A DNA stretch of 59,706 bases from Euzebya sp. (lineage in GTDB: Bacteria > Actinomycetota > Nitriliruptoria > Euzebyales > Euzebyaceae): contig NZ_CAXQBR010000099.1 of NCBI RefSeq assembly GCF_964222135.1, positions 1-59,706 on the forward strand, read 5' to 3'. The notes below the pieces were generated by a model. The model was not told the origin of the DNA. It saw only the letters and a program-made list of their open reading frames with translations, and made no database searches. A program made the translations under genes and the position numbers. Of this stretch, positions 27,284 to 32,578 are shown piece after piece (position 1 is the stretch's first letter; each line of letters opens with the position of its first letter).

Positions 27284-27799
27284 GTGATCCTGCCGGAGGT
27301 CCGGGACCCCCGCCTCATCACGATCCGCCGTGGTGGGACGCTGACCGATGCCGACCACCACCTCCTGGCCCTGTGGGCGGCCACGTGCGCCGAGCACGTG
27401 CTGCACCTGTTCGAGGAGGCGCGACCCGACGACCCCCGACCCCGCGAGGCGATCGAGCACGCTCGCCGCTGGACCCGCGGAGAGGTCACCATGATGCGGT
27501 CACGCGCCGCCGGCGGCCACGCGATGGGCGCCGCACGACCGCTGCGCGGGGCACCCCGGTTCGCCGCCTACGCCGCCGGGCAGGCCGCCTGCGTCCCCCA
27601 CGTCGCCGAGCACGACCTCGGCGCGGCCGCGTACGCGATCAAGGCGGTCCAAGCTGCCGCGGGTGAGGGGGAGGGGGCGGCGGCCGGTCGACGGGAGTGC
27701 CGCTGGCAGCGCGAGCAGCTCCCCGACGCGGTCCGCGAGCTCGTCCTCGACGACCAGCGGGCGCGGAACGACATCTGCTGGTCGGTGTTCGAGGTCTAG
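27284..27799 (+). CDS. Imm-5-like putative immunity protein
   Basis: This 171-residue helical protein resembles the Imm-5-like family. Supporting sequence is ALWAATCAEHVLHLFEEARPDDPRPREAIEHAR, a run of Ala-rich helices (AAYAAGQAACVPHVAEHDLGAAAYAIKAV), and WQREQLPDAVRELV at the end. Family members were predicted as immunity proteins in polymorphic toxin loci, but many occur alone. No toxin gene lies beside it here, so an immunity role is not supported by context. The start GTG 27284 follows the VOC gene by 13 bp, and the two may be co-transcribed. Confidence 0.65.
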   Translation: MILPEVRDPRLITIRRGGTLTDADHHLLALWAATCAEHVLHLFEEARPDDPRPREAIEHARRWTRGEVTMMRSRAAGGHAMGAARPLRGAPRFAAYAAGQAACVPHVAEHDLGAAAYAIKAVQAAAGEGEGAAAGRRECRWQREQLPDAVRELVLDDQRARNDICWSVFEV

Positions 27800-27816: not shown

Positions 27817-27856
27817 TGTTACTCTCCATGCCGTAGCGATGGCATCGGAAGTAACA
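27817..27856 (+). promoter_or_regulatory. Inverted repeat (16-bp arms) before the HTH gene
   Basis: Arms TGTTACTCTCCATGCC (27817-27832) and GGCATCGGAAGTAACA (27841-27856) match at 13 of 16 positions around an 8-bp spacer. The repeat ends 12 bp before ATG 27869. Its position and length suit an operator bound by the protein encoded just downstream. Confidence 0.6.
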
Positions 27857-27868
27857 ATAGGGAACACG

Positions 27869-28309
27869 ATGACGGATCCGGAGCGGTTCCACTCGCCGGA
27901 GGACGTGGCCGAGCTGCTCGGGCTCCACGTCCGGACGGTCCGCCGCTACATCCGCGAGGGGAAGCTCGACGCCGTCCGGATCGGCAACCGGTACCGGATC
28001 GCGCCGGAGGACCTCGAGGCGTTTGCCGGCCGGCCGGCCGACGGGCCGGGCAGCACGACGCCGAACGGGCCGCCGCGCACGGACGTCACCTGCGTCATCG
28101 ACATCCAGCCCATCGACCGCGACGGCGCGGACCGGATCACGACCCTGCTCACGGCGAGCGCGATGGGACGTGAGCGCGGCGCCGGGACCAGGCTCCGCCT
28201 CGATGCCATCCAGGAGCCCGACCACCACCGGCTGAAGGTCGTGGTCGTCGGCCCGCCCGCCGACACCGCCGCCGTGCTCGCCCTCCTCGCCGCCTACCAG
28301 GACCGCTGA
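27869..28309 (+). CDS. Excisionase-family helix-turn-helix protein
   Basis: This 146-residue protein has an N-terminal MerR/excisionase-type HTH_17 domain: FHSPEDVAELLGLHVRTVRR, then YIREGKLDAVRIGNRYRIAP. The C-terminal ~75 residues (from TDVTCVIDIQPIDRDGADRI to VLALLAAYQDR) alternate strands and helices and match nothing I know. Such HTHs act in excisionases but also in ordinary regulators; no integrase is nearby, so regulation is more likely. I use ATG 27869 rather than ATG 27839, because the latter lies in the inverted repeat and lacks an RBS. The HEAT/EF-Ts gene begins two bases after its stop, so the pair is an operon. Confidence 0.82.
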   Translation: MTDPERFHSPEDVAELLGLHVRTVRRYIREGKLDAVRIGNRYRIAPEDLEAFAGRPADGPGSTTPNGPPRTDVTCVIDIQPIDRDGADRITTLLTASAMGRERGAGTRLRLDAIQEPDHHRLKVVVVGPPADTAAVLALLAAYQDR

Positions 28310-28311
28310 CC

Positions 28312-29511
28312 GTGGACATCGCATCACCGACCACCCGCACGGCGATCGCCCTCCTCGGCGACCCCGACCCCGACGTCCGGCTGCGGATGGCCCTCGAGCT
28401 GGGCGAGAGCCGGCACGCCGAGGCCGCCCCCGCCCTGGTCGCCCGGTTCGGCGTCGAGCGGGACTTCTCGATCCGCGAGACGCTGACCTGGGCCGTGCTG
28501 CGCATGGCCGACGCGGCGATGCCGCTGGTCCGCGAGGCGCTCGCCAGCCCGCGCTGGCTCGCGCGGCTGCAAGCCACGCACACGGTCAGCAAGCTCGGCG
28601 CGCGCGAGGACGGCGCGCGCCTGGTACCGCTCATGGCGGACCCCATCGACGTCGTCGCTTCCCGCGCCTACTGGGCCGCCGCGCAGTGCGGCGACCCCGC
28701 CGTGGTCCCCGCCCTCGTCGCCGAGCTGTCGCGCGGGTCGTCGGCGCACCGCAACAGCCTGACCGTCGCCCTCACCGACTTCGGCGACGTGGCCGTGTCA
28801 CCGCTCGTCAGCGCGCTGCGAGCCGGGGCCACGGCCGCGGTGCGCCAGCACGCCGCCGACACCCTCGGCTACATCGGATCGCCCACGGCGGACGCCGCGG
28901 CGCCGGCACTGATCGCGGCGGCGCAGGATCCTGACGAGGGGGTCCGCCTGGCCGCCCTGAACGCGCTCGGCCAGCTGGTGGTCCCCGCCGCGTGGGACGT
29001 GATCGAGGGGGCTCGGGGGGCGGGCGGTCGGCTCGGGGTGCTCGCCGCCCGGCTCGCCGAGCGCCGTCCGAGCGACCGCGCGCTCCGCATGGCGGCCCTC
29101 CGCGGCAGCCGGTCCTCCCCGCTCGACGTGGGCGGCGTCGACGCGCCACCGGCGAGGTCCTGGCCCGCGCCGGATCCCGGGCTGGTCACCCTCGAGGGCG
29201 GCCCGTGGGCGGCGGAGCTGATCGCCCCGCTAGCCCTGCAGGTGGCGGTGTGCCGGCCGCGGTGGCTGTCGCGGGCCGAGGTGCCCGCCGACGTCCTGGC
29301 AGAGGTGCACGCCGCCGCGCTCGCCGACGCCCTGGCCGAGGGGACACCGGACCCGGACGCGATCGCCGAGCGGGTGGCCGCCGGTCGGGTCGAGCAGTTC
29401 GTCCACGAGCACGTGCTGCTCGAGCAGGTCAGCGTCGCCGACCCCGGGGTGATCGTCGCGGACCTGCTCCGCGGGACCGAGGTCCGGGTCGTCGACCTCG
29501 TCCGGCGCTGA
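28312..29511 (+). CDS. HEAT-repeat protein fused to the C-terminal half of elongation factor Ts
   Basis: The 399-residue protein has two parts. Residues 1 to about 230 are HEAT-like helical pairs (LLGDPDPDVRLRMALELGES, QHAADTLGYIGSP, DPDEGVRLAALNALGQLV). Residues ~297-399 read like the C-terminal half of EF-Ts: ALQVAVCRPRWLSRAEVPAD corresponds to the EF-Ts segment ALQIAAxNPxYLSREEVPAE, then EGTPDPDAIAERVAAGRVEQ, HVLLEQVSVADP and VADLLR. The EF-Ts N-terminal UBA domain and TDFV motif are missing, so it is not a housekeeping EF-Ts. A factor that touches EF-Tu or competes with EF-Ts is the obvious inference, untested. It starts at GTG 28312. Confidence 0.8.
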   Translation: MDIASPTTRTAIALLGDPDPDVRLRMALELGESRHAEAAPALVARFGVERDFSIRETLTWAVLRMADAAMPLVREALASPRWLARLQATHTVSKLGAREDGARLVPLMADPIDVVASRAYWAAAQCGDPAVVPALVAELSRGSSAHRNSLTVALTDFGDVAVSPLVSALRAGATAAVRQHAADTLGYIGSPTADAAAPALIAAAQDPDEGVRLAALNALGQLVVPAAWDVIEGARGAGGRLGVLAARLAERRPSDRALRMAALRGSRSSPLDVGGVDAPPARSWPAPDPGLVTLEGGPWAAELIAPLALQVAVCRPRWLSRAEVPADVLAEVHAAALADALAEGTPDPDAIAERVAAGRVEQFVHEHVLLEQVSVADPGVIVADLLRGTEVRVVDLVRR

Positions 29512-29737: not shown

Positions 29738-32578
29738 CTACTCCGCGGGAGCCTCGCCGGTGATGGTGATGCGGCCCTCGCCGCCCTCGGGGTACGCCTC
29801 AGCGCTCACGAGGTTGCCCAGTCCACCGTCCTCGACGGGGGTCTGGATGTACTCGGCGATCGACTGCTGGTAGGAGACGCCGACGGGGGTGAACTCCCCC
29901 TCCTCCAGGTTGAAGGGGTAGGCGTCGCCGTTGCGGATGCTGAAGTCGATCGACGCGAGCGTGACCGCGGGAGCACCGTCGACGACCTCGCCGTCGGCGA
30001 CCAGCGGGGTGCCGTCGGCGAGCGTGACCGACCGGACCCGCTCACCCGGGGTGGTGATGGTCACGGTGCCCTCGTCGTCGGTCTCGACCTCCTGGGCGGT
30101 CTGGGACAGGTCGACCTCGATGACCAGGTTGGAGACGTGGGCGAAGGCGCCGTTGGCGTTCTCCACGTCGGAGTAGGCGCGCTCGAGCACGTCCTTCAGC
30201 TGCTGGGCGCTGAAGTCCGGCACCGCCGCGATGAAGTTCGCGAACGGCAGCACGTCGTAGGTCGTCAGCTCGCTGATGTCCCCGGCGGGGATCACCGAGT
30301 TGTTCCGGATGCCGCCGCCGTTCTGCAGGCCGACGATCGGCTGGCTGGTGTCGATGCCGAATTCGCCGCCGTAGGTGCCGACGATGAAGCGGTGGGCGTC
30401 GGCGACCAGGTTGCCGAGGTTGGTCTCGGTCTGGCGGATGTTCGGACGGGCGCCGTCGAGGGCGACCTCGGACATCGCGATCACGTTCTCGGCCAGGTCG
30501 GCCACGAACTCGCGCACCGGCGCCTCGACGTCCGCCACGACCGACTCGTCGCGGGCGACGCCACCGGGGAGGGACTCGTCGGCGATGCGCAGCATCCGGG
30601 AGGTGCCGTCGTCGTACGGGGTGTCGGCGAGCAGCTCGCCGTCCTCGCCGAAGTACAGGGTCAGTCGACCGAGGTACTTGTAGTCGCCGGCCGTGGTCAC
30701 GGTCGGGACGACCTCGCCGTCGGCGTCGGTCAGCTCGACCGGGTAGGAGTCGGCGACGCTGAAGGTGTCCCCGGGGACCAGCGGGTCGGCGGGGTCGGCC
30801 AGGACCTCGTCACCGCCACCAGCGACGACCGCGTCCAGGCCGGACAGCTGCGGGATCAGGTCGAAGTCCTCGCCCAGGCCCTGCAGGTGGCTGATCAGGA
30901 CGATGTGCTCGACGCCCTCGGCGGTGAGCTCGTCGATCTCGCCCTGGACGATCTCGACGATGTTCTGCAGCACGACGACGTCGCGCGGCGAGGAGATCGA
31001 CCGCAGGCCCGGGGTGACCAGACCGATGATGCCGACCGGGGTGCCGCCGGCGTCGACGGTGACCCGCGGGGCGATCCGCCCCTCGTCGACCAGCGCCTGG
31101 AGCGCCGGCTCCTCGGAGAAGTCGAGGTTCGCCGACAGGAACGGCGGGGCGTCCTCGCCCTCGAAGGAGGTGATGAAGCGGGCCGCGAAGTCCGGTCCGA
31201 AGTCGAAGTCGTGGTTGCCCAGGGCCAGCGCGTCGTAGCCGACCTCGGACAGGCCGATCGCGTCCAGGATCTGACCCTCCTCGGCGAGGGGGTCGGACGC
31301 GCTCAGCTCGGGACCGGCGAGGAAGTTGTCGCCGGAGGTGACGGTCACGGCAGCGCAGCCGGCTTCCTCGGCCGCGGCCTGCTCGGCGTTCGCCAGGGTC
31401 ACCAGGCGTGCGAGCGAGCCGAAGGACTCGTCGGCGCCGGTGCCCAGCAGTTGGGACTCGCCGTCGTTGTGGTGCAGCAGGGTCAGGCAGACGTCGGCGT
31501 CGACCTCCGCCGGGGTGGCGGCTGCGCCGATGGCGTCGGCCACCGACTCGCTGATCGCGTCGGCGTCGCCGACCAGGACGTGGCTGTCGACGGTGTCGAG
31601 CGCGGAGCCGAGCAGCTCGATGGTCTGCGGGGACCCCGCCGGGTCGACCGAGTCGACCATGACGGTCGGGTGGCCCTGGGCACCGGCGACCGCGCCGGCG
31701 GCGAGACCCTCGACGAACGAGCCGCCGGGGATCACGTAGCGGACCGACGGGTCCATCAGGGCCTCGGAGACCGCGTAGCTGTAGACCGCGGCGGAGGTGC
31801 CGAAGCGGGAGTCGCCGGCCAGTCGGGCGAGCGGGTCCTCGGCCTCGCCCTGCAGCGCGGTGGCGACGTCCTCGCCGACGGCGGCGGTGCCGCCGACGAT
31901 GATGCCGGTGGCGCCCTCTGCGGCCCAGGCGTCCCAGGCGCCCTGGATGACCTCGGGCACGAACTCGGCGTTCACCGGCAGGATCGGCTGGCCGGTGGCG
32001 GCGGCGACGGCGGCGATGTTGATCGCGTCGGGCCAGCCGCGGGTCGCGTCGGCGTTCTCGCCCTCGACGAAGAAGACGGTGGAGGGGATCTGCTCGCCGA
32101 TCAGCTCGCCGGCGACCTGCAGGGCGGTCTGGAAGCGGGTGTCGCCGGCGACGCGGCGGACGCTCAGCCCGGCGCCGGTCAGCTCGTCCTCGACGTCCTG
32201 GCTGACGGCGGCGACGCCGCCGAGGATGACGACCTCGCCGGCGCCGAGGCGCTGGACGGCGGGCAGGAGGCCCTCGGAGAGCGACGCGGAGTCGGTGAAC
32301 AGGATGGGGGCGTTCGCGGCGGCGGCCAGCGTCGACCCGGTCAGCGCGTCGGCGTAGTCGTCGGCGCGGGCCAGGAAGACGGTCTCTGCGGACTCGTACG
32401 CCGTCTCGGCCAGCGCGATGGCCGTGCCGATGGCGTCGTCGCCGGCGACGCGGGTGCTCTCGACCTGGCTGAAGTCATTCGCGGCGTCTGCGGGCTCGAC
32501 CAGTGGGGCGGCGGCCAGCAGCGCCGCGACGAGCGACACCAGTGCCGCCAGCGCCAGTGGGCGCGTTCGTGCAGTCAT
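29738..32578 (-). CDS. Secreted 5'-nucleotidase-like phosphatase with N-terminal CWB2 cell-wall anchor
   Basis: The 946-residue protein starts with a signal peptide (ARTRPLALAALVSLVAALLA, cut near ADA-AN). About three CWB2 repeats follow, each opening with a motif like RVAGDTRFQTALQVA or RLAGDSRFGTSAAVY, and bind wall polymers. From about residue 365 comes a UshA-like calcineurin phosphatase (SGDNFLAGPE, LALGNHDFDFG, VLISHLQGLG) and then the nucleotidase C-domain (ETNLGNLVADA, NGGGIRNN). The first metal motif reads HHNDGES rather than the usual HTNDxHG. It should release phosphate from nucleotides at the cell wall. Shine-Dalgarno GAGG precedes ATG 32578. Confidence 0.9.
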   Translation of the reverse strand: MTARTRPLALAALVSLVAALLAAAPLVEPADAANDFSQVESTRVAGDDAIGTAIALAETAYESAETVFLARADDYADALTGSTLAAAANAPILFTDSASLSEGLLPAVQRLGAGEVVILGGVAAVSQDVEDELTGAGLSVRRVAGDTRFQTALQVAGELIGEQIPSTVFFVEGENADATRGWPDAINIAAVAAATGQPILPVNAEFVPEVIQGAWDAWAAEGATGIIVGGTAAVGEDVATALQGEAEDPLARLAGDSRFGTSAAVYSYAVSEALMDPSVRYVIPGGSFVEGLAAGAVAGAQGHPTVMVDSVDPAGSPQTIELLGSALDTVDSHVLVGDADAISESVADAIGAAATPAEVDADVCLTLLHHNDGESQLLGTGADESFGSLARLVTLANAEQAAAEEAGCAAVTVTSGDNFLAGPELSASDPLAEEGQILDAIGLSEVGYDALALGNHDFDFGPDFAARFITSFEGEDAPPFLSANLDFSEEPALQALVDEGRIAPRVTVDAGGTPVGIIGLVTPGLRSISSPRDVVVLQNIVEIVQGEIDELTAEGVEHIVLISHLQGLGEDFDLIPQLSGLDAVVAGGGDEVLADPADPLVPGDTFSVADSYPVELTDADGEVVPTVTTAGDYKYLGRLTLYFGEDGELLADTPYDDGTSRMLRIADESLPGGVARDESVVADVEAPVREFVADLAENVIAMSEVALDGARPNIRQTETNLGNLVADAHRFIVGTYGGEFGIDTSQPIVGLQNGGGIRNNSVIPAGDISELTTYDVLPFANFIAAVPDFSAQQLKDVLERAYSDVENANGAFAHVSNLVIEVDLSQTAQEVETDDEGTVTITTPGERVRSVTLADGTPLVADGEVVDGAPAVTLASIDFSIRNGDAYPFNLEEGEFTPVGVSYQQSIAEYIQTPVEDGGLGNLVSAEAYPEGGEGRITITGEAPAE

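Follow-up and report, generated by a model that had tools for sequence, protein, structure and literature searches.

The window, a stretch of 59,706 nucleotides of DNA from Euzebya sp., encodes a protein in which a HEAT-repeat solenoid is fused to the C-terminal part of the elongation factor EF-Ts, and in which residues that EF-Ts uses to contact EF-Tu are lost or changed. Our preferred reading, to which we give a probability of roughly 0.55, is that this is a HEAT protein that would bind a ligand or partner and whose EF-Ts-derived tail would mediate dimerisation or docking but not nucleotide exchange.

Architecture of the HEAT-EF-Ts protein

The fusion gene (28312..29511, forward strand) was delimited from the list of open reading frames and its translation, and encodes 399 residues from a GTG start that is consistent with the homologue alignment. 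Residues 6-250 (28327..29061, +) form eight HEAT repeats. The HEAT_2 profile (PF13646) matched the protein with an E-value of 2.7e-21 in a Pfam search, and AlphaFold modelled 16 helices with a pLDDT of about 90; HEAT-repeat membership thus rests on both the profile match and the paired-helix solenoid of the model. A proline-rich linker of low model confidence follows (residues 251-288, 29062..29175, +), delimited from the homologue alignment and the AlphaFold model, at the position where homologues with a full EF-Ts core carry the N-subdomain. Residues 289-398 (29176..29505, +) correspond to the C-subdomain of EF-Ts without its first strand and include the helical hairpin of this fold at about residues 326-363. 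This assignment draws on the profile match, on matches to solved structures and on purifying selection in relatives.

The sequence-only reading had described the protein as HEAT-like repeats standing in place of the EF-Ts N-terminal domain and followed by the C-terminal half of EF-Ts, and this description is accurate. The EF_TS profile (PF00889), which it had named as the check, matched residues 301-398 over positions 104-199 of 204 with an E-value of 9.3e-15 and 55.2 bits, above the curated cut-off of 27 bits. The three EF-Ts motifs that had been quoted follow one another correctly and begin at residues 308, 343 and 367. The protein has neither the N-terminal domain nor the N-subdomain with its TDFV motif, and its C-subdomain lacks the first strand. 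Searched alone against solved EF-Ts structures, the tail matched 1tfe, 1aip and 7vmx at 3e-11 to 3e-10, and the closest of these was 1tfe, the Thermus dimerisation-domain structure. The NCBIfam model for tsf, TIGR00116, gave 42.7 bits over positions 173-269 of 293, below its equivalog cut-off of 104 bits. The window protein is therefore an EF-Ts relative by PF00889 and not by TIGR00116, the N-terminal domain, TDFV or the EF-Tu contact histidine.

The EF-Ts tail was modelled with low confidence in two AlphaFold runs, on the window protein and on the homologue L033, because each prediction was limited to two sequences. When the L033 model was searched against the PDB, the best 50 matches were nearly all HEAT or armadillo solenoids and none was an EF-Ts. 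In the part of the literature covered by our searches, no publication was found on EF-Ts joined with HEAT repeats in a bacterial protein, in agreement with the earlier remark that no such system was known.

Distribution and origin of the family

Other genomes yielded seven more homologues, which span the whole window protein at 51-63% identity. They occur in two further species of the window's genus (G001 and G003), in one other genome of its class (G035), in an Actinomycetales MAG (L033 of genome G423), and in G438, G502 and G752; the homologue search found no fusion in G002, also of the window's genus. In genome samples that overlap, and in the large ones of which the best few candidates per genome were scored, the fusion was present in 4 of 66 genomes of the window's class, at least 3 of 396 phylum-wide, at least 3 of 297 in the order of G423 and at least 1 of 395 in the class of G423. 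The family is rare and scattered in Actinomycetota. Since seven other genomes carry homologues, the gene is not an assembly accident, and the profile E-values together with its occurrence in eight genomes rule out chance or assembly error. Plasmids and phages gave matches to the HEAT part only, and no relative was found on viral contigs.

PF00889 matched the EF-Ts part of all eight fusions (seven scanned together, plus L005 of G003), with 39-128 bits in those outside the window. Two forms were apparent. In L033, G438 and G502 the whole EF-Ts core lies behind the HEAT repeats (profile positions 1-203 of 204, 99-128 bits), and L033 matches M. tuberculosis EF-Ts with an E-value of 1e-38. The window protein and its homologues in G001, G003, G035 and G752 have the C-subdomain only, without its first strand. 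Every fusion-bearing genome also has its own separate, normal tsf; that of the window's genome lies on contig C97, and the fusion is distinct from it. A short, Thermus-like, one-subdomain form with TDFV is the canonical EF-Ts of the window's class (L001, L007-L032, L039-L042), with the exception of L008 (G004, same family), which appears to have two subdomains.

Trees of the EF-Ts C-subdomain and of the HEAT domain each placed the eight fusions in one clade (100/99 in both). The truncated fusions were nested among the full-core forms in the EF-Ts tree (99/89). There the fusion clade adjoins actinomycete tsf and is distant from the one-subdomain tsf native to the host group, and its finer placement is unsure because the tree comprises 107 columns only. 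The host's own tsf is ruled out by this tree as the source of the EF-Ts domain. Recovery of one fusion clade in both trees shows, on phylogenetic grounds, a single origin, in which a HEAT protein was fused with an actinomycete-type EF-Ts core that had both subdomains; the phylogeny also shows that the N-subdomain was lost later, in the window's branch. The simplest history would comprise a single fusion event and a single loss of the N-subdomain, with patchy inheritance or with transfer in a direction that we infer.

EF-Tu contacts and selection on the tail

In EF-Ts, the TDFV motif acts on the Mg2+ site of EF-Tu, and the C-subdomain contacts EF-Tu domain III. The eight fusions were aligned with 18 two-subdomain EF-Ts and with the M. 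tuberculosis and E. coli proteins, and were read at the contact positions named in two earlier studies (PMC9529903, PMC3747624). M. tuberculosis R13, K24, D77, F78, H149 and D154 and E. coli A174 are reported there as essential or as direct EF-Tu contacts. None of the fusions has the N-terminal domain that carries R13 and K24. TDFV is deleted in five of them, including the window protein, and is replaced by SEFT, TTVV and SEVI in the three full-core homologues, so that D77 is altered or deleted throughout and F78 is retained in L033 alone. The contact histidine (E. coli H147, M. tuberculosis H149) is present in 18 of 18 canonical EF-Ts and in none of the eight fusions; D154 is likewise lost in all fusions, and seven of the eight have V, F or T in place of E. 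coli A174. M. tuberculosis N82 and E. coli K166 and M170 are variable among fusions and canonical EF-Ts alike and hence uninformative. The core positions P156, L162, A177, G225 and Q239 (M. tuberculosis numbering) are retained, as is the type of residue at V234, a hydrophobic position facing EF-Tu domain III that is V or I in the fusions.

The sequence-only reading was borne out in that HEAT repeats are joined to a genuine EF-Ts C-subdomain; its proposal that the protein docks on EF-Tu through the EF-Ts fold fared less well, given that R13, K24, D77, H149, D154, A174 and, except in L033, F78 are gone or changed. Loss or change of these contacts makes nucleotide exchange in the known manner very unlikely and canonical docking on EF-Tu unlikely, and EF-Tu docking by the fusions is doubtful as judged from the alignment. 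A residual or non-canonical contact is possible, because the V234 position stays V or I.

The tail has nevertheless been kept under constraint. In the closest pair of fusions (L004-L005), the dN/dS ratio by the Nei-Gojobori method was about 0.13 for the EF-Ts part and about 0.11 for the HEAT part. At three positions every fusion has replaced the K, K and V of canonical EF-Ts with H, G and L (H365, G379 and L385 of the window protein). New invariant residues and a low dN/dS indicate that the EF-Ts-derived domain is repurposed and not decaying.

Gene neighbourhood and proposed function

Upstream of the fusion, separated from it by 2 bp, lies a gene for a 156-residue, excisionase-type HTH_17 protein (27839..28309, +; PF12728, E-value 2.6e-15), which is probably co-transcribed with it. 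The suggestion that such an HTH gene is a constant partner is ruled out: eight other genomes, of which seven have the fusion, gave no homologue at E<=1e-6, and two loci carry a MerR-HEAT gene instead. Also upstream on this strand is an Imm5-like gene (27284..27799, +; PF21805, E-value 1.1e-38), which we regard simply as a neighbour. Convergent with the fusion, the opposite strand (29738-32578, -) encodes a large protein with CWB2 cell-wall-binding repeats and a 5'-nucleotidase C-terminal domain. No fixed gene neighbourhood was found across the fusion loci. By names given by eye from translations, the neighbours are dcd and a UPF0016-like membrane gene in G001 and G003, a DnaB-like gene and an oxygenase-like gene in G035, and a HAD-like gene and a peptidase-like gene in G423. 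In G752 (L066:228-1361) the truncated fusion is followed after 48 bp, on the same strand, by rsgA, a ribosome-assembly GTPase gene. The fusions of G438 and G502 lie tail-to-tail with a MerR-HEAT gene; none was found in the other six fusion genomes, the window locus included.

Homologue searches and the HEAT tree related the HEAT domain of the fusions to that of HEAT/MerR-HEAT gene pairs, for which no study was found in the part of the literature covered. On actinobacterial plasmids, HEAT relatives lay beside MerR-HEAT matches in eight records as judged by position, two of which were checked by annotation and Pfam. The recurrent arrangement on these plasmids is a short HEAT gene followed directly by the MerR-HEAT gene (L095:3989-5621, L096:3980-5656 and others). 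Two Deinococcus plasmids (L094:4284-5816, L093:4278-5822) encode a MerR part, a TipAS-like antibiotic-recognition stretch (E-values 3e-9 and 3e-5) and a HEAT part in one protein. A related HEAT domain is fused to an amidohydrolase in G724 (L067:1525-3624), and in G680 (L056:7370-9459) a HEAT-only relative lies directly upstream of an AAA_21 ATPase gene, with a slight overlap. Given its linkage to MerR-HEAT, MerR-TipAS-like and amidohydrolase partners, this HEAT domain is a mobile module that often accompanies a MerR sensor.

On our preferred reading, the HEAT solenoid of the fusions would bind a ligand or a protein partner, a role that is also probable for its relatives joined to MerR regulators or encoded next to them. 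By homology, the EF-Ts-derived tail would be a dimerisation or docking module, a putative pseudo-exchange-factor domain without nucleotide-exchange activity. The Thermus dimer is imitated by an internal repeat in two-subdomain EF-Ts (PMC9529903), and loss of the N-subdomain may therefore expose a dimer face; the short form would then dimerise through the face that the N-subdomain formerly covered, as Thermus EF-Ts does.

A regulator that docks on EF-Tu would instead bind domain III through its tail and use the HEAT part to bring in a partner or to block exchange, in competition with EF-Ts. The C-subdomain fold that makes the domain III contact in EF-Ts is retained, the V234 position is kept, and one truncated homologue lies just upstream of rsgA, all of which would suit such a role. 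We regard it as unlikely, however, since H149 and D154 are lost in every fusion and A174 is changed in seven of eight, TDFV is lost or altered, the N-terminal domain is absent, and in M. tuberculosis single mutations of R13, N82 or H149 disrupt the EF-Tu complex (PMC9529903). The fusions might also represent a new class of exchange-dead adaptor, with the HEAT part as sensor and an EF-Ts-derived tail that has acquired a novel mode of docking, on EF-Tu or a different translation GTPase, and so couple ligand sensing to elongation; we consider this improbable.

The MerR relatives raise a further scheme, in which a MerR-HEAT protein would sense a compound, the HEAT protein would bind it, and the tail would provide a link to an EF-Tu-directed compound. 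In TipA proteins a MerR regulator carries a domain that binds antibiotics (PMC7762955), and the MerR-HEAT gene adjoining the fusion in G502 and G438, the plasmid gene pairs and the Deinococcus proteins all point in this direction. The missing MerR-HEAT gene in six of eight fusion genomes, and an EF-Ts tail without a link to any drug, leave a drug response of this kind improbable too. Finally, the stepwise loss of EF-Ts parts within the fusion clade could reflect a functionless remnant that hitchhikes on a HEAT protein and degenerates; constraint on the tail about equal to that on the HEAT part in the closest pair, and invariant residues specific to the fusions across eight genomes, make this very improbable.

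The family can be set beside several known proteins. It shares with bacterial EF-Ts a homologous C-subdomain with its helical hairpin, but it lacks the N-terminal domain and the contact histidine, has TDFV lost or altered, carries HEAT repeats in front and is additional to a normal tsf. Thermus EF-Ts (1tfe, 1aip), like the truncated forms, has a single core subdomain; unlike them, it retains both TDFV and the N-terminal domain and is a nucleotide-exchange factor (PMC9529903). In chloroplast PETs and EMB2726 an EF-Ts domain is also fused behind another domain, which is S1 rather than HEAT; the PETs-derived EF-Ts is reported to be an EF-Tu exchange factor, and EMB2726 to be the only plastid EF-Ts (PMC8343077). 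Caulobacter phage Colossus gp247 is another truncated EF-Ts paralogue of unclear function, but at 98 residues and without HEAT repeats it keeps the opposite half, the N-subdomain with F81 (PMC3556154). The actinobacterial HEAT/MerR-HEAT pairs share a related HEAT domain, and their MerR-HEAT type of gene adjoins two fusions, whereas their HEAT member has no EF-Ts part.

EF-Ts is regarded as a single-purpose housekeeping factor. The fusions form a conserved family of EF-Ts paralogues from which the exchange machinery has been removed stepwise, with the remainder under selection and attached to a sensor-like solenoid. Full-core and truncated homologues together provide a natural series in which to ask what other uses the EF-Ts fold may have and whether any contact with EF-Tu is left. 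In the fusion, a housekeeping factor seems to have been taken over for a new job.
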